A stretch of DNA of 7,953 nucleotides, taken from the NCBI GenBank assembly GCA_026387515.1, contig JAPLLP010000142.1:1-7953 (forward strand), written 5' to 3'. Below are positions 1,054 through 7,953 of the stretch, in pieces. This DNA comes from Candidatus Omnitrophota bacterium. Lineage in GTDB: Bacteria; Omnitrophota; Koll11; Gygaellales; Profunditerraquicolaceae. How positions within the stretch are numbered: the first letter of the stretch is position 1; each line of letters opens with the position of its first letter. The translations under genes and the position numbers were made by a program. The notes beneath the pieces were generated by a model. The model made no database searches, was not told the origin of the DNA, and saw only the letters and a list, made by a program, of their open reading frames with translations.

Positions 1054-2829
1054 ATGGCAAATATCGATAAAAGATTAATTGAGATTTGTAATGAGGCTGT
1101 AGCGGATGTTGAGGCTAAGAAATTCCCTGATTTTTTATCGTCATTTAGACAGAGACAGGATGCTGCAAAAAAAGAAGGCGATCAGGAATTAGAGGAGTTT
1201 ATTAAATTGCTTTGGGGTGTTTTCTCTATGTATTTTACATTTGCCAAAGGTCAGCCTTTCGGTCCGCTTATGTCTGGGCCTCAAGGAAGAACAATGATTC
1301 CTGAAGATTTAACCGAAGATGAGTTATTAAAGCTGGAAAAAAGCCTCGGAGCATCTAATAATCCTGAATTCGTTGCGCGAATTTGTGATGTCCTTTGGAT
1401 AAGACGCAGGAATCCTTTATATGCCAGAAAAGCAATAAATGCTTATTTACAGTCTGCGGATGAGGATAAAGATGAATCTTGGGTGCCTAGGAGTGAATGG
1501 CTCAAGAGGGCTACTCAAATTGTAATGGAGTTAGGGGAAAAGGCACAAGAAAGAGAGATTATTAAGAAAAAAATAATGGATTTATTTGAAGATAGTAGAA
1601 AAACTTGTTTTAATCCTAGAATGGATTATTGGCCCTCGTCTCTATTAAAACTTATTATAGAAAACAAACTTGCTGATAATTGGGAAGAGCTTGGCAATAA
1701 ATCTGTTGAGATAGCGAAAGGATTTCCTGTTTCGCCGGGATGTGATGCACCGCGTAAATATTATGGATTAGCAGCTGCATGTTACAATTATGCAACTAAG
1801 CCAGATAAGGTTAAGGAAATGAAAATTGCTATTGCCAAACACTGGGAGGATGAGGCAAGAAGTTTCAAGACTCCTGAAGGTTGCGATGGATTTAATTTAG
1901 CACATCGGCTTGAAAAGGCTATTCATGCTTATCGCGAGGCAGGAGATAGTAAAAGGGCTGAAGAACTGGTGCATGAATTGAAGGAAGCAAATAAGATTGC
2001 AACAAGCCAAATGAAAATCATCACAAGTCCACCTATTGACGCCGCCCCTTTATTAAAAATCGCAGATGATGGGATAGGAGACAAAAAGGGAATTGCTGCA
2101 ATTGAAGCGTTTGCTACATTACTTACGCCTTTTTCTTACGAACACGAAGAAGAATCAGCCAAGAAGATGCTCAAGGAACACCCATTGCAGGGTTTATTTA
2201 ATACTCAAGTATTGACTGATGAAGGGAACGTAGCAGCTACAATCCCTAGCATGACGGATGACTACGATGAGGCGATTAAAGCTCAAGTTGTCCGGGGCTA
2301 CAATCTCGGCCAGAGTTTGTCAGCAAATACTACTTTAAGACGAGGCATTGCTTTAATCTTGGAATCAGGAGACTCTTGGAGAGAGGGGCTAAAAGAGCTG
2401 ATAAATTCAAGTGTATTCGTACCAAAAGATAGAGTAGATATTTATCAAAGAGCAATTCTCGCGGGATTTGAAGACGACTTTTTGTCGTTTACTCATCTAA
2501 TCGTCCCTCAGATTGAGAACTCAGTAAGGTTAATATTTGGCATGAACAAGCAAAAGATTACCTCTGTACGCGAGGGAATACAGCAAGAAAGAGACTTAAA
2601 TCAACTTTTGACTGATCCAGAGGCCGAAAAAATATTCGGGAAAGATTTACTCTGGGAAATGCGATCTGTTCTAATTGAAAAAACCGGTCCGAATCTGAGG
2701 AACAGAATATGTCACGGTCTAATATCGTCCACTGGGATAAATAACTCTTCATCTGTCTTTTTATTGTGGTTGATTCTTCACTTGATTGTTGGTTTTCAAT
2801 CAACCGAGAAAAATGAAGACCATAATTAG
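1054..2829 (+). CDS. DUF4209 protein with C-terminal HEPN-like RNxxxHG motif
   Basis: The protein has 591 residues. A stop codon in frame at 1039-1041 with no start codon between it and 1054 fixes the start at this ATG, although no Shine-Dalgarno is visible. Residues 1 to about 470 are charged and mostly helical, rich in tryptophan, resembling the helical N-terminal halves of other long DUF4209 proteins. The C-terminal part (about 475-581) fits the DUF4209 domain: IVPQIE (483-488), SVRLIF, a conserved GKDLLWEMRSVL helix, then GPNLRNRICHG with R549, N550 and H554, then a hydrophobic helix (567-581). The RNxxxHG motif defines the domain. It has the R-x4-H form of HEPN RNases, and the human DUF4209 protein ERMARD is linked by name to RNA degradation. 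RNase activity is inference. It lies 8 bp before another HEPN-like gene, suggesting one operon and a joint role. The hydrophobic C-terminal helix is more likely a bundle core than a membrane anchor. Confidence 0.8.
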   Translation: MANIDKRLIEICNEAVADVEAKKFPDFLSSFRQRQDAAKKEGDQELEEFIKLLWGVFSMYFTFAKGQPFGPLMSGPQGRTMIPEDLTEDELLKLEKSLGASNNPEFVARICDVLWIRRRNPLYARKAINAYLQSADEDKDESWVPRSEWLKRATQIVMELGEKAQEREIIKKKIMDLFEDSRKTCFNPRMDYWPSSLLKLIIENKLADNWEELGNKSVEIAKGFPVSPGCDAPRKYYGLAAACYNYATKPDKVKEMKIAIAKHWEDEARSFKTPEGCDGFNLAHRLEKAIHAYREAGDSKRAEELVHELKEANKIATSQMKIITSPPIDAAPLLKIADDGIGDKKGIAAIEAFATLLTPFSYEHEEESAKKMLKEHPLQGLFNTQVLTDEGNVAATIPSMTDDYDEAIKAQVVRGYNLGQSLSANTTLRRGIALILESGDSWREGLKELINSSVFVPKDRVDIYQRAILAGFEDDFLSFTHLIVPQIENSVRLIFGMNKQKITSVREGIQQERDLNQLLTDPEAEKIFGKDLLWEMRSVLIEKTGPNLRNRICHGLISSTGINNSSSVFLLWLILHLIVGFQSTEKNEDHN

Positions 2830-2837
2830 AGGTAAAA

Positions 2838-3902
2838 ATGTCAGAATCAATATTTGAGGAAGGCGGCCCGCATAAAATAAAACGGATAGATACGGATAAA
2901 TATCAAATGAATGTTTCCTTGCCTTTAGATTCAGATGGTCGTTTGGCTCGGGAATGTCCTTCTGAGAATTGTTCTCCGGGTTATTTTAAGGTCAAACCGG
3001 GAACCGGAATCACAAGCGAGCAAAAATCTGCTTTTTGTCCCTATTGCCGATTTAGTTCTGAACCTAAAAATTTTGCCACAAAAGAACAGGTAAGATATGT
3101 AAAAGATTCAGTTATGAGAGAAACTCATGAAGGTATCGGTAAGATGATTCAGGATGCTTTGGGATTGGGTCCTTCCGGCAAAAAGAAATATGGTGACGGG
3201 TTTATTTCTATGGAGATGAGTTATAAGGCTGGGAGTTTACCGTATGTAAGACCTCCAATTGAAAGTGAATTGAAGAGAGATGTTATATGTCCAAATTGCG
3301 GCCTAGATCATTCTGTTTATGGATTGGCTACATGGTGTGCGGATTGCGGGAGAGATATTTTTTTAATTCACGTTGAAGCAGAACTGAATGTTGTAAAAAC
3401 AATGTTAGAAGATGTAAGCAGACGCCAAGAGAAAATAGGGTCTCGAGTAGCGGCTAAAGATATAGAAAATTGCCTTGAAGATACTGTATCAATTTTTGAG
3501 GCTGTGCTTAAAGCCCTGTTAATCCGTTATTACATCAATAAGGGGCTGTCTGAAGATGAAATCAATGAGATTTTGAAGAAAAAAATAGGCAATGCCTTTC
3601 AATCGATATCGCGGACAGATTTGTTCTTTCAAGCCGAGCTCGGCTTTAAACTTTTTGATGATGTGGACAAAGAAACCCTTGAATTCCTTGCTTTGACTTT
3701 TGAAATGCGGCATCCTATTACCCATAATCTTGGCATAGTTGATAGAAAATATCTTGAGAAAGTAAGATCAGCTGAAAAAGAAGGCCGCGAAATACGGGTG
3801 ACGATAGAGGACATAGAAAAAGCCATAAATATTTCATTTGATATCTTTAAGTCTACACATAGACGTTTGTTTAGAGCTGATGATGGCAACTCAATAATTT
3901 AG
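2838..3902 (+). CDS. Two-zinc-ribbon protein with C-terminal HEPN-like domain
   Basis: The protein has 354 residues. The ATG at 2838 is preceded by AGAGGT (2828-2833), which overlaps the stop codon of the previous gene, so translation is probably coupled. Domains in order: a first zinc ribbon (C40-x4-C45 and C67-x2-C70); a linker; a second zinc ribbon (C151-PN-C154 and C167-AD-C170); then a helical region from about 180 to 345. In the last part the helix around FEAVLKALLIRYYINKGLS precedes FEMRHPITHNLGIVD, with R291-x4-H296 followed by N297, G299 and D302. This pattern, R-x4-H then NxGxVD, is typical of HEPN RNase-fold proteins. Zinc ribbons could bind nucleic acid or protein partners. No named family is recognised for the full architecture. 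Paired with the DUF4209 gene, it may form a two-subunit RNase or an effector-sensor pair; the catalytic role is inferred from the motif only. Confidence 0.7.
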   Translation: MSESIFEEGGPHKIKRIDTDKYQMNVSLPLDSDGRLARECPSENCSPGYFKVKPGTGITSEQKSAFCPYCRFSSEPKNFATKEQVRYVKDSVMRETHEGIGKMIQDALGLGPSGKKKYGDGFISMEMSYKAGSLPYVRPPIESELKRDVICPNCGLDHSVYGLATWCADCGRDIFLIHVEAELNVVKTMLEDVSRRQEKIGSRVAAKDIENCLEDTVSIFEAVLKALLIRYYINKGLSEDEINEILKKKIGNAFQSISRTDLFFQAELGFKLFDDVDKETLEFLALTFEMRHPITHNLGIVDRKYLEKVRSAEKEGREIRVTIEDIEKAINISFDIFKSTHRRLFRADDGNSII

Positions 3903-3970: not shown

Positions 3971-4141
3971 ATGCCTAAAAGCTATCTGACAGTCAGGGAT
4001 GCCGCAAAGCAGCTTGAGCTTACCGAGTATAGGATAAGGCAGCTCATCAATCTCAAAGAAATCAAAGCCACAAAGATAAAGCAGTGGAGGATTAAGCCGA
4101 AGGATTTAGAGGAGTTTGTCAGGGCGAGAACGAATAAATAA
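3971..4141 (+). CDS. Small helix-turn-helix (excisionase/MerR-like) DNA-binding protein
   Basis: The frame encodes 56 residues from the ATG at 3971 to TAA at 4139-4141, with AAGAGGGG just upstream. The sequence YLTVRDAAKQLELTEYRIRQLI, then a short wing, then WRIKPKDLEEFVRA, follows the HTH_17/excisionase pattern: YLTVxEAA, a recognition helix, a wing with W-R-I, and a final D-L-E-x-F. Such proteins are either Xis directionality factors in mobile elements or small transcription regulators. Here no integrase is visible, so regulation of the neighbouring genes is as likely as excision. The 97-residue gene begins 11 bp after its stop and is probably cotranscribed. Five of six arginines use AGG, unlike the long genes on either side. 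Confidence 0.82.
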   Translation: MPKSYLTVRDAAKQLELTEYRIRQLINLKEIKATKIKQWRIKPKDLEEFVRARTNK

Positions 4142-4152
4142 AGAAGTAAAGT

Positions 4153-4446
4153 ATGCCTATAAAGAAAATTATTGTATCAGAAGACTTGCTTAAGAAATTA
4201 GAACAGCCAGATAATCCAGTGATTGTTGTGGGTATTCCTATGGGGACTGCTCCTGCTGCAACTGGCGATTATGTTTTGCATGAAGTTCAGGAAAAATATC
4301 CTGCTGTTATGGTTTCTGCTACTACTGGAAGCACGATCAGCTTTGTGGCCGTGCAAGCGGCAGAAGAGGAGCATATGAAGCTGAAGAATGTTAAGCTTCA
4401 TGTTGGGATTAATCCAAGCGTTGATTTTGAGTGGGAGAAGAAATAG
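4153..4446 (+). CDS. Unrecognised 97-residue protein behind the HTH gene
   Basis: The frame runs from the ATG at 4153 to TAG at 4444-4446. It starts 11 bp after the helix-turn-helix gene, with AAGAAG (4141-4146) as a weak ribosome binding site, so cotranscription is likely. I do not recognise the family. The product looks like a small soluble alpha/beta fold: an N-terminal charged helix (SEDLLKKLEQ), then strand-like PVIVVGIPMG, a glycine/alanine loop (TAPAATGDYV), AVMVSATTGS, STISFVAVQAAEEE and VKLHVGINPSVDFEW. No cysteines, signal peptide or membrane segment are seen. The codon pattern (regular third-position T and A) and the amino-acid mix look genuinely coding. A role as a partner or target of the HTH protein is possible, but nothing in the sequence shows it. 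Confidence 0.65.
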   Translation: MPIKKIIVSEDLLKKLEQPDNPVIVVGIPMGTAPAATGDYVLHEVQEKYPAVMVSATTGSTISFVAVQAAEEEHMKLKNVKLHVGINPSVDFEWEKK

Positions 4447-4523
4447 AAAAAGAAGATCCTGAATGCGGTTCCGTAATAGGTTTGGGCGTTCAAACTAACT
4501 AAAAGTATTTATAGGTAATTATT

Positions 4524-4527
4524 GGAG
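4524..4527 (+). promoter_or_regulatory. Shine-Dalgarno GGAG deciding the start of the ABC-3C effector
   Basis: GGAG at 4524-4527 ends nine bases before the ATG at 4537. It overlaps the in-frame TTG codon at 4522 that would give a protein five residues longer, so the ATG at 4537 is the better start. Confidence 0.6.
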
Positions 4528-4536
4528 AATGAGTAT

Positions 4537-5619
4537 ATGGCCAATGTTCAAGAGGTCACAAAACCTGATTATAAAATTGATTTGTCCAATGCTCAAATAC
4601 TTTCTAAGCCTCTTCTCCCATTACAGCTACTCAAAGTAATTGATGAAGACAGCTTTGAAGAAATAGTGCATGAATGGGCCTTTGAGTATTTAAAGTCGAA
4701 ATATGAAAAAGTATGCCGTCTTGGAGGTACGGGCGATAAGGGTAGGGACGTAGTAGCTTACTCAGATTGCAAAAACGATATCTGGGATAATTATCAATGC
4801 AAGCATTATGCCCAAAAATTAAACACCTCGGATGTTATTCTTGAAATTGGCAAGTTGTGTTATCGCTGTTATCTAAAAGAATTTACTTCTCCTAAAAAAT
4901 ATTATTTTGTCTCACCTTTAGGCGTTGGAACGAAAGTCCATGATTTGTTAAGAAACGGTGTTTCTCTTAAAGATACACTAAAGAAGAACTGGAATAATAG
5001 CTGTGAGAGCAAAATATGCTCTGGCAAAAAAGTAATTTTAGATGTTGGTCTTAGTGCTTATATAGATAGTTTTGATTTCTCAATATTTGATTATATTGAA
5101 CCATTGGAGTTTATCAACCAATATAAAGGCACTTGTTACTATTCAGCTCGTTTTGGTGGCTTTTCCAAGTCTCGCCCACTACCGCAGCCAGCCCCAGAGA
5201 AAATACAAGATAATGAGTCAGTTTATATTAAAAAAATATTAGAGGCCTACAGCGAATATCTTAATAGTGACATTGAAAATGCAAAAAAGCTGGACGCTTA
5301 CCCAGATTTAAAAAAGGATTTTGAAAGGCATAGGACTTGTTTCTTTTGTGCAGAATCTCTTAACAAGTTCTCGCGAGATATTTATGATCCAGACCTTAAA
5401 CACTTTGAGAATTTAAAACAGGAAATATATGATGGAGTGATTAATACTATTGAAGAAGACGCAGAAAATGGATTTTTACGGCTTAAAAAAGTATTAGATA
5501 GGGCAACAGATTTGGAAATTACGAACAATCCCTTGATGAGTAGTGTCAAAGTAAACGATAGAAAGGGAATTTGCCATCACCTAGCTAATGAAAGAGATGA
5601 TGTAAAATGGAAAAAATGA
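4537..5619 (+). CDS. ABC-3C effector: Mrr-like nuclease fused to the ABC-3C C-terminal domain
   Basis: The protein has 360 residues from the ATG chosen for its GGAG. Residues about 36-130 form a PD-(D/E)xK restriction-endonuclease-like domain: FEEIVHEW (E41/E42), then RLGGTGDKGRDVV with D71, then YQCKHY with Q87 and K89. This is the E...D...QxK arrangement of Mrr-type nucleases, so metal-dependent DNA cleavage is expected. Residues from about 229 on match the ABC-3C C-terminal domain: a helix with AYSEYL, HRTCFFCAESLNKFSRD, a long helix with IYDGV, and the closing DRKGICHHLANE (341-352), followed by W near the end. By family knowledge this domain tethers an effector to an ABC ATPase via a middle component. 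The stop overlaps the next gene by 13 bp, so the three genes form one operon. The GC content and codon use resemble those of its partners. The target DNA is unknown. Confidence 0.88.
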   Translation: MANVQEVTKPDYKIDLSNAQILSKPLLPLQLLKVIDEDSFEEIVHEWAFEYLKSKYEKVCRLGGTGDKGRDVVAYSDCKNDIWDNYQCKHYAQKLNTSDVILEIGKLCYRCYLKEFTSPKKYYFVSPLGVGTKVHDLLRNGVSLKDTLKKNWNNSCESKICSGKKVILDVGLSAYIDSFDFSIFDYIEPLEFINQYKGTCYYSARFGGFSKSRPLPQPAPEKIQDNESVYIKKILEAYSEYLNSDIENAKKLDAYPDLKKDFERHRTCFFCAESLNKFSRDIYDPDLKHFENLKQEIYDGVINTIEEDAENGFLRLKKVLDRATDLEITNNPLMSSVKVNDRKGICHHLANERDDVKWKK

Positions 5620-6113
5620 TCACCCCATATTTTTTCAACTCTCCCTTAGAAACGGGTCTAAGATTACTGTTTGTATTTAACAATACAAATAAACGATTTT
5701 TGGACATTCAAAGGTTAGTGTATTACAACTATTTGTTGATACATTCCTCTGATATCCCGGAGGCCCCATTTGAAAGTTTGCATCCTGAAATGCCAAACAG
5801 GTCTTGCGAAATATTAATAGGAAGAAAAATAATTCAAAAAGGCATCAACTTGTTATTATCCAAAGGATTGATCTGTGTCCATTATGAAAAATCCGGGGTT
5901 CGTTACAACTCAAATGAAAATACTTCTTTATTCTTGAGCCATTTGTCTTCCAACTATTCTAAAGAATTAGAAAAGCGAGCAAAATGGGTCTGTGAGAAAT
6001 ATGATCCGATGTCAGATCTCAAATTAAATGAATTTATGCAAAGCAATCTTGGCACATGGGGTGCTGAATTTTCGCGGGAATTTCATCTCATGGGAGAATT
6101 GAACAATGCATAA
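5607..6113 (+). CDS. ABC-3C middle component (MC2 type)
   Basis: The protein has 168 residues. The ATG at 5607 lies inside the effector gene; a second ATG at 5616 overlaps the effector stop as ATGA and is an equally good start, giving 165 residues. The sequence carries the middle-component hallmarks: FFNSPLETGLRLLFVF (9-24), then a winged-helix-like part with LDIQRLVYYNYLLIHSSD, the conserved SLHPEMPNR (57-65), and a second helical part with GINLLLSKGLICVHYEKSGVRY, typical of a wing. Members of this class sit between the ABC ATPase and the CTD effector in three-component systems and probably link the two. No catalytic motif is visible. It overlaps the ATPase gene by 8 bp. Assignment to the MC2 subtype is from remembered family pattern and is less sure than the role. 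Confidence 0.82.
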   Translation: MEKMITPYFFNSPLETGLRLLFVFNNTNKRFLDIQRLVYYNYLLIHSSDIPEAPFESLHPEMPNRSCEILIGRKIIQKGINLLLSKGLICVHYEKSGVRYNSNENTSLFLSHLSSNYSKELEKRAKWVCEKYDPMSDLKLNEFMQSNLGTWGAEFSREFHLMGELNNA

Positions 6114-7953
6114 GGGATTTTATTTCAAGGAATTGAGGGTTGTGGGAAAAAAGGTTAAACCCGCAAAGTTGTTGTTTAATAGAGGTCTGAATGTTCTCCA
6201 AGGCGCATCAGATACTGGGAAATCTTATGTATTTAATTGCATTAATTATGTTCTAGGCAGCACCAGAGAGCCTAATAAAATAAAAGAAGCTGAAGGATAT
6301 GATGAAATAAGATTGAATCTATGCACTTATGATAATCAGGATTTCACAATTGGCAGAAAATTCGGTGATTCAAAAATATATGTTGCCAAAGCTTTCATGG
6401 ATGGCTATGACAAAGTTAGCACAGATAAATTGAATTCGATACATAGCTCAAAATCCGATGACAATATATCATATTTCCTATTGAGTCTAATTGGTTTAGA
6501 AGGTAAAAAATTAAGTGTAAATGCTAGGAATGAAAAAAGGGCTATAAGTTTTCGAGATATTGCTAATCTCTGTCTTATAAACGAAGAATTAATAATTTCT
6601 ACGACTTCTCCTATCTACTCGGGGCAAGTTGTTAATAAAACCGTTGAAGAATCAGTTTTTAAACTTATTTTATCCAGCAAGGATGACGACGAGCTGGAAT
6701 CTCTTGAAAATCCTAAAGTATACAAAAATAAAATTAAAGGCAAAATAGAATTTATTGAAGACTCGATTATCGGTAAGAGCAAACGACTTGAAGAATTAGA
6801 AAAAAATGTGAAGAATATGGAAATAGATGAAATAAATATCAGGATAGACGAGTTTACCAACCTAATAAATGAGTCTTATAAAAATGTACAAGAGGAAGAT
6901 AAGAAAAGGGCTGTTATATGGAATGACGTTGAGTCACTAAGAAGCCAATTAAATCAAATTGAAGAACTCGAGAAACGCTTCCACTTACTAAATAAACACT
7001 ATATCAGTGATTTAGATAGGTTAGAATTTATTAATGAAGGGAAACAGTATATAGAACAGCTGAAAGATATTGAATGCCCCATTTGTGGTTCCTGCATTAA
7101 TCAAAAAGTTCTTGATGATTATGAAGAGCGTAACTCTGAAAAGATAATGATTTCGTTGATGTCAGAGTCAGACAGCATAAAACTAAAACAAAAAGAACTA
7201 TCCGATACTCTACAGCAACTTAATAACCAAAAAATAGAATTATCTTCTAAGCATACTATTAAAGTCGGTGAATTTGAGGCAATAAACACGTATATAAATA
7301 ATAAGCTAAAACCCGTAGCGGATATAAATCGGCAAAAACTCGAAGAATATTTGAAGCTTAAAGAAGATAAATACGGAATATCCGTTTTAATCGAAGAAAT
7401 AAGTCAGCTGAATAGGGATAAAAAATATTATTATACTAAGCTTGACGAGAAAATTAAGAAGATACCCGGAAGGTCTGTACCTAACGATCTGTATAACCTA
7501 TTTTCCGATGAAATAAAGAAATATCTTATTGAGTGGGGGCTTACTTGCAATACAGTCTATTTTGATAAAACTGAAAATGATATTGAGATTGATGGCAAGC
7601 CAAGAAGTCATTACGGAAAGGGATTTAGGGCAATATACCAATCAGCCTTTATGATCGGCTTAATGGATTATTGTTTGAATAAGAATAATAATAAATTTCA
7701 CCCATTTTTCCTGATATTAGATTCTCCTTTGACAACCTATAAAGAACAGGATAAAGACAAAATTCTAAAAGATGATGAAGTTTCGGAGAATATTCAAGAA
7801 TTATTTTATAAAAGTCTGTCAAAATATGATAAAAATAGTGAATTTCAAATATTCTTGCTAGAGAATAAAGACCCCGAAGAAAAAATAAAAAAATTAATAA
7901 CCTATGAGCATTTTTCAAAAAATCCAAATGTAGGTAGATACGGATTTTTCCCT
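6106..7953 (+). CDS. ABC-3C SMC/Rad50-like ABC ATPase with zinc hook (3' end outside window)
   Basis: The frame starts at the ATG at 6106, inside the stop region of the previous gene, and is open to the right edge: 616 residues without a stop. Walker A is GASDTGKS (33-40). The N-lobe continues with ISFRDIANLCLINEELI (147-163) and TTSPIYSG (166-173), typical of ABC-3C ATPases. Residues about 200-470 are a charged coiled coil broken by CPICGSC (C324, C327, C330), a Rad50-style zinc hook. The signature region is SHYGKGFRAI (501-510). Walker B is FFLILDSPL with D539; a serine follows it where most ABC proteins have the catalytic glutamate. The last visible residues, GRYGFFP, look close to the end, so little is probably missing. 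The ATPase would sense or remodel DNA or nucleoprotein and license the nuclease through the middle component. Confidence 0.9.
   Translation, partial: MHKGFYFKELRVVGKKVKPAKLLFNRGLNVLQGASDTGKSYVFNCINYVLGSTREPNKIKEAEGYDEIRLNLCTYDNQDFTIGRKFGDSKIYVAKAFMDGYDKVSTDKLNSIHSSKSDDNISYFLLSLIGLEGKKLSVNARNEKRAISFRDIANLCLINEELIISTTSPIYSGQVVNKTVEESVFKLILSSKDDDELESLENPKVYKNKIKGKIEFIEDSIIGKSKRLEELEKNVKNMEIDEINIRIDEFTNLINESYKNVQEEDKKRAVIWNDVESLRSQLNQIEELEKRFHLLNKHYISDLDRLEFINEGKQYIEQLKDIECPICGSCINQKVLDDYEERNSEKIMISLMSESDSIKLKQKELSDTLQQLNNQKIELSSKHTIKVGEFEAINTYINNKLKPVADINRQKLEEYLKLKEDKYGISVLIEEISQLNRDKKYYYTKLDEKIKKIPGRSVPNDLYNLFSDEIKKYLIEWGLTCNTVYFDKTENDIEIDGKPRSHYGKGFRAIYQSAFMIGLMDYCLNKNNNKFHPFFLILDSPLTTYKEQDKDKILKDDEVSENIQELFYKSLSKYDKNSEFQIFLLENKDPEEKIKKLITYEHFSKNPNVGRYGFFP

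Follow-up and report, generated by a model that had tools for sequence, protein, structure and literature searches.

A double-zinc-ribbon protein with a HEPN-like domain lies between a DUF4209 protein and Lamassu genes in a Candidatus Omnitrophota bacterium

Introduction

Fusions of a zinc ribbon to a HEPN domain, such as Npun_R5629 and DUF4145 proteins with a zinc ribbon, were listed in 2013, and the same survey listed DUF4209 (C6orf70) as a HEPN family of bacteria and eukaryotes with a conserved motif (PMC3710099). Here we analyze a stretch of 7,953 nucleotides from contig JAPLLP010000142.1 of a Candidatus Omnitrophota bacterium (the window), in which a gene for a DUF4209 protein (gene A; positions 1054 to 2829, plus strand, 591 residues) is followed by a gene for a double zinc ribbon fused to a HEPN-like domain (gene B; positions 2838 to 3902, plus strand, 354 residues). 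A preliminary description of the window had read the two genes as a candidate undescribed RNA-targeting module.

Several described systems share features with B. In PDC-M14, a PADLOC candidate system that consists of M14A and M14B, the ribbon of M14A is like that of B, but B is without an M14B gene and has a HEPN-like domain fused to it instead. Pairs of a standalone ribbon and a TIR protein (PF10137), found mostly on plasmids of Actinomycetes, contain the ribbon module of B, but their effector is a separate protein. The HEPN anticodon nucleases PrrC and RloC are HEPN-type RNases, as B is predicted to be; unlike them, B has zinc ribbons and no recognized ABC ATPase domain. PrrC carries an ABC ATPase domain, and prrC is located between hsdS and hsdR. 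The predicted structure of B resembles, at modest scores, the folds of HEPN-MNT toxin-antitoxin systems, and AbiEii-type nucleotidyltransferases are encoded near B at two loci (L001 and L134), but no MNT-type partner was recognized among the scanned proteins of the window. CoCoNuT systems combine HEPN domains and zinc ribbons within McrBC-type GTPase systems, but a ribbon-HEPN fusion like B was not found in the available part of their description (PMC11090510). The fusions listed in 2013 are described as joining a ribbon to HEPN, as B appears to do (PMC3710099).

Results

Alignment of B with its relatives defined two zinc ribbons, the first formed by C40, C45, C67, and C70 (positions 2955 to 3047, plus strand) and the second by C151, C154, C167, and C170 (positions 3288 to 3347, plus strand). 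All eight cysteines were invariant in the 120 relatives listed, of 1,048 found, that were used for conservation counts, in agreement with the two ribbons of the preliminary description. The ribbons are followed by a helical C-terminal region (residues 175 to 350; positions 3360 to 3887, plus strand), which was tentatively assigned a HEPN-like fold from the predicted structure and fold searches. This region contains the only R-x4-H motif of the protein, R291-H-P-I-T-H296 (positions 3708 to 3725, plus strand). Both R291 and H296 were present in 120 of 120 relatives, with histidine as the residue after the arginine in 119 and arginine in 1, and R-H-x3-H was retained in all eight of the distant full-length relatives that were aligned. 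Such a motif arises readily from composition: among 5,000 shuffles of B, 36% contained R-x4-H and 7.7% had it in the last fifth of the protein, and the corresponding values for A were 42% and 9.7%. Composition alone is therefore weak evidence, and it is the conservation in relatives that raises the motifs of both proteins above chance.

The predicted structure of B (mean predicted local distance difference test score [pLDDT] of 76) showed a C-terminal bundle in addition to two ribbon regions; the loop that carries the motif was modelled poorly. In a Foldseek search, 8 of the 10 top rows (4 entries) were HEPN or HEPN-MNT structures, as were 12 of the 18 top rows of a VIA search; the scores were modest, and some designed helical bundles appeared further down. 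No Pfam family reached its cut-off against B, and a sequence search against solved structures returned nothing at 1e-3. The preliminary description had proposed structure prediction of both C termini; the bundle of B resembled HEPN at modest scores, and the fold search with A, described below, gave no HEPN row among the 50 matches listed.

The PADLOC profile PDC-M14A matched B at 2.5e-12, with residues 22 to 106, which contain the first ribbon, aligned to profile positions 4 to 85 of 152. The same profile matched 27 of 27 scanned relatives of B at 0.01 and was covered from position 5 to 149 by a divergent B (L147), although in a whole-genome search at 1e-5 it missed the B gene of one genome (G306). 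Among the eight window proteins scanned there was no match to M14B, the adjacent gene that assignment to PDC-M14 calls for. In other replicons the ribbon is encoded on its own. A Lysinibacillus plasmid encodes a 144-residue M14A (1.3e-52) with M14B directly after it (3.7e-91). On plasmids of Rhodococcus, Kocuria, Arthrobacter, Microbacterium, and Curtobacterium, a standalone ribbon gene lies directly downstream of a TIR gene (PF10137), and this order recurs in two genomes (L168 and L169) of the class to which a Microbacterium belongs. On two haloarchaeal plasmids, 5 bp separate a standalone double-ribbon gene from the gene upstream of it, which encodes a 334-residue protein without a Pfam match (L160, 2485 to 3944; L161, 2482 to 3941). 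Inspection by eye of one further locus (L170) recognized no partner of the ribbon. The 11 standalone loci fetched, with one of three Rhodococcus records taken, thus comprise seven with TIR, two with the 334-residue protein, one with M14B, and one with none.

A model built from eight standalone ribbons matched all 120 B relatives, none of 92 A proteins, and none of 120 shuffled sequences in which the cysteines were kept. Applied to the 9,982 open reading frames (ORFs) of the fetched loci, it scored only the two known B genes, one of them weakly (0.0028). These controls indicate that the link between B and the standalone ribbons exceeds shared cysteine spacing. As judged from sequence, B represents a version of the PDC-M14A module to which a HEPN-like domain has been fused. 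Literature searches on PDC-M14, or on zinc ribbons together with TIR, antiphage, and HEPN, which covered few subscription journals and not bioRxiv, returned nothing on a shared module; the second of these searches led to work on Cas12a3.

The distribution of B is patchy: it was detected in 1 of 285 genomes at 1e-10 and in 4 of 240, 1 of 201, and 2 of 345 genomes at 1e-20. It was found on 13 plasmid records. There was no match in annotated phages at 1e-5, and none of 58 pattern matches in viral contigs was a relative. We examined 18 loci of B outside the window, with near-identical Sinorhizobium plasmids represented by one. At eight of them, as a raw count, a gene of a recognized defense family was adjacent to B or one gene away. 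These were PifA (L128), HsdS (L144 and L171), AbiH as annotated (L126), AbiEii directly downstream of B (L134) or one small gene upstream of it (L001), AIPR/AbiU one gene upstream (L145), and a PLD gene with weak matches to DrmC and MkoB (L127). At the other 10 loci (L002, L124, L125, L132, L133, L141, L142, L143, L146, and L147), where a minority of the neighbors were scanned, none was recognized directly beside B. A separate observation concerns a Methylocystis plasmid (L149, 1338 to 4523), on which a segment that combines a ribbon with an R-x4-H motif like the C terminus of B follows an IS6 transposase gene; the gene before the transposase gene had no match and is itself preceded by a DUF4062-like gene.

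Two of the loci place B between hsdS and hsdR, the position that prrC occupies. In L144 one other gene separates B from hsdR, with HsdS and HsdR recognized by scan. In L171 there are two such genes, and the one nearer to B is SIR2-like (1.4e-5); HsdS and HsdM were recognized by scan and HsdR was read by eye. The two loci come from two phyla. PrrC is silenced by the type I restriction-modification enzyme to which it is linked (PMC2610378), and B could likewise be a toxin held silent by an operon partner as a guard of restriction, with A or Lamassu in the window being only its latest host operon. We regard this explanation as unlikely, although it fares best among the alternatives: only 2 of the 18 B loci were recognized as lying inside a type I restriction-modification operon, and the B of the window, unlike PrrC, shows no ABC ATPase domain.

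Gene A encodes DUF7380 (PF24098, 2e-33), a helical solenoid, and DUF4209 (PF13910, 3.6e-16). The PADLOC profile PDC-S39 covers it near full length (2.5e-115; residues 13 to 580 on profile positions 19 to 598 of 615). The DUF4209 domain (residues 487 to 576; positions 2512 to 2781, plus strand) was delimited with Pfam, and its assignment to HEPN is that of PMC3710099. It contains the single R-x4-H motif of the protein, R549-N-R-I-C-H554 (positions 2698 to 2715, plus strand), and keeps the RNxxxHG of the PDC-S39/DUF4209 family. Both residues were kept in all 83 of the 91 aligned relatives that have letters at both columns; one further aligned relative has a gap at the arginine column and a tyrosine at the histidine column. 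The residue after the arginine was asparagine in 81 of the 83 and histidine in 2, which is polar, as the HEPN motif demands. The fit of both motifs to the HEPN form, proposed in the preliminary description, is thus borne out by conservation in the relatives of A and B alike. The motifs that it placed at the ends of the proteins are real, but they lie 37 residues (A) and 58 residues (B) before the C termini.

The predicted structure of A (mean pLDDT of 89.6) is a helical solenoid with a helical C terminus. Rows matched in the fold search lay mostly over the solenoid (residues 5 to 321), the 50 matches listed being solenoid and designed repeat proteins. A sequence search against solved structures at 1e-3 found only a designed mini-binder (3.4e-4). 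A thus belongs to a candidate family that was already known, from which we found no important difference, and its HEPN nature had already been published; the term "undescribed" therefore does not hold for A. PDC-S39 has candidate status in PADLOC, and no functional test was found in the examined passage of the single paper that was found to name it; other phage defense candidates are termed uncharacterized in PMC12482510. DUF4209 "Occurs in R-M related operons," as PMC3710099 puts it.

Genes A and B, both intact, share a strand and are separated by 8 bp, and AGAGG stands just before the ATG of B. Reexamination of the sequence confirmed these coordinates, the gap, and the numbering of both motifs, and the two genes are probably cotranscribed. 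The arrangement favors the proposal that the two proteins work jointly, as a single two-component RNase or a sensor-effector pair, as do close relatives of A (P0124, 77%) and of B (P0002, 84%), both of which are on 21,420-bp metagenome contigs that are probably one contig. The tandem could therefore date far back in a single clade, and a partnership specific to that clade may exist. The wider survey weighs against a joint system. A model of B was run over the DNA fetched around 121 A loci. Genomes supplied 80 of these loci, chosen as the best among 258 relatives, and viral contigs the remaining 41. The model matched at none of them, 10 of the 121 having less than 1.2 kb downstream. Whole-genome searches of 50 of the 80 genomes found B anywhere in only 2. 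Among 285 Omnitrophota genomes, A was present in three (1e-40) and B in one (1e-10), and no genome had both. The 27 plasmid records with A and the 13 with B had no accession in common. In the three close relatives of A with genome sequence, inspection by eye showed that the genes downstream of A differ. Comparison of profiles of the whole proteins gave no signal of kinship between the HEPN halves. A lack of repeated co-occurrence, which the preliminary description had named as grounds for refuting its reading, is thus largely what was observed, and a recurring two-part system was not supported across what was searched; we rejected A plus B as a co-occurring two-gene system on the 121 loci, the 50 and 285 genomes, and the plasmid accession lists, and consider it improbable that the pair acts as one.

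Two observations concern other neighbors of A. A cluster of related neighbors was drawn from 15 loci; its eight listed members are cyanobacterial and immediately follow A, either overlapping it or abutting it. One member (L017, 11695 to 12126) is a PIN-domain protein (9.1e-7), giving a repeated pairing of DUF4209 with PIN. At another locus (L078, 6648 to 7691), an ORF of 348 residues overlaps the start of a DUF4209 homologue and has an R-x4-H motif of its own (RNPRAH), HEPN-like by eye only.

Downstream of B, the window encodes a 56-residue HTH_17/excisionase-like protein (positions 3971 to 4141, plus strand; HTH_17, 3.9e-11). Its identification as MADS1 was rejected: the PADLOC score was 18.8 bits, and in NCBIfam it reached 13.6 bits where the cut-off is 80. 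A 97-residue ORF between this gene and that of LmuA (positions 4153 to 4446) had no family match above cut-off. Positions 4522 to 7953 contain a Lamassu (ABC-3C) set in the order LmuA-LmuC-LmuB, all three matched on the plus strand: an LmuA-like ABC-3C component (CTD6; 4522 to 5619, 1.2e-105), an LmuC-like protein (MC2; 5607 to 6113, 2.4e-45), and an LmuB-like SMC-type ATPase that runs past the window end (6106 to 7953, 6.1e-147). The small helix-turn-helix gene and the ABC-3C system noted earlier beside the tandem were thus both recovered. At the other end of the window, positions 2 to 289 encode an incomplete dinitrogenase iron-molybdenum cofactor-type protein (PF02579, 9e-7). A search of the window against Escherichia coli genomes in near mode gave no match.

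Discussion

Both A and B look like HEPN RNases in a defense neighborhood and probably are, with RNase activity, trigger, and defense role being what we infer from these sequences. The reading that we favor, and hold to be reasonably probable, is that A and B each constitute an abortive-infection module of a single protein, separate from the other, and lie side by side in a defense island next to Lamassu, with B a ribbon-HEPN sensor-effector fusion. In A, a helical solenoid acting as sensor would be joined to a HEPN RNase at the C terminus. In B, the double zinc ribbon would sense infection, in the form of a phage product or nucleic acid, and the HEPN domain would then cut host RNA, perhaps tRNA, so that growth stops. 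We assign the sensing role to the ribbon since it stays the same whereas its effector may be HEPN, TIR, or M14B. That A and B instead serve housekeeping functions in RNA processing or regulation, with no part in defense, is very improbable: eukaryotic DUF4209 has a predicted role in RNA decay at the endoplasmic reticulum (PMC3710099), but B is patchy among genomes, is carried on plasmids, and has defense-gene neighbors.

Beyond separate modules in the window, we propose tentatively, and with somewhat less than even confidence, that B belongs to an unrecognized defense family. In such a family, one double-ribbon sensor of a common phage signal would be used with interchangeable effectors, namely, a fused HEPN domain or an adjacent TIR protein, PDC-M14B, or the haloarchaeal 334-residue protein, and the HEPN version would in some hosts be embedded in a type I restriction operon and serve there as a second line of defense.

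A and B would accordingly be two things that the window makes look like one. A sensor-like module appears to be common to HEPN, TIR, and M14B effectors, and if it is the ribbon that determines the trigger, exchanging ribbons would be expected to carry phage specificity from one effector to another. In two phyla B lies between hsdS and hsdR, which suggests that PrrC may not be the only HEPN guard of restriction systems.
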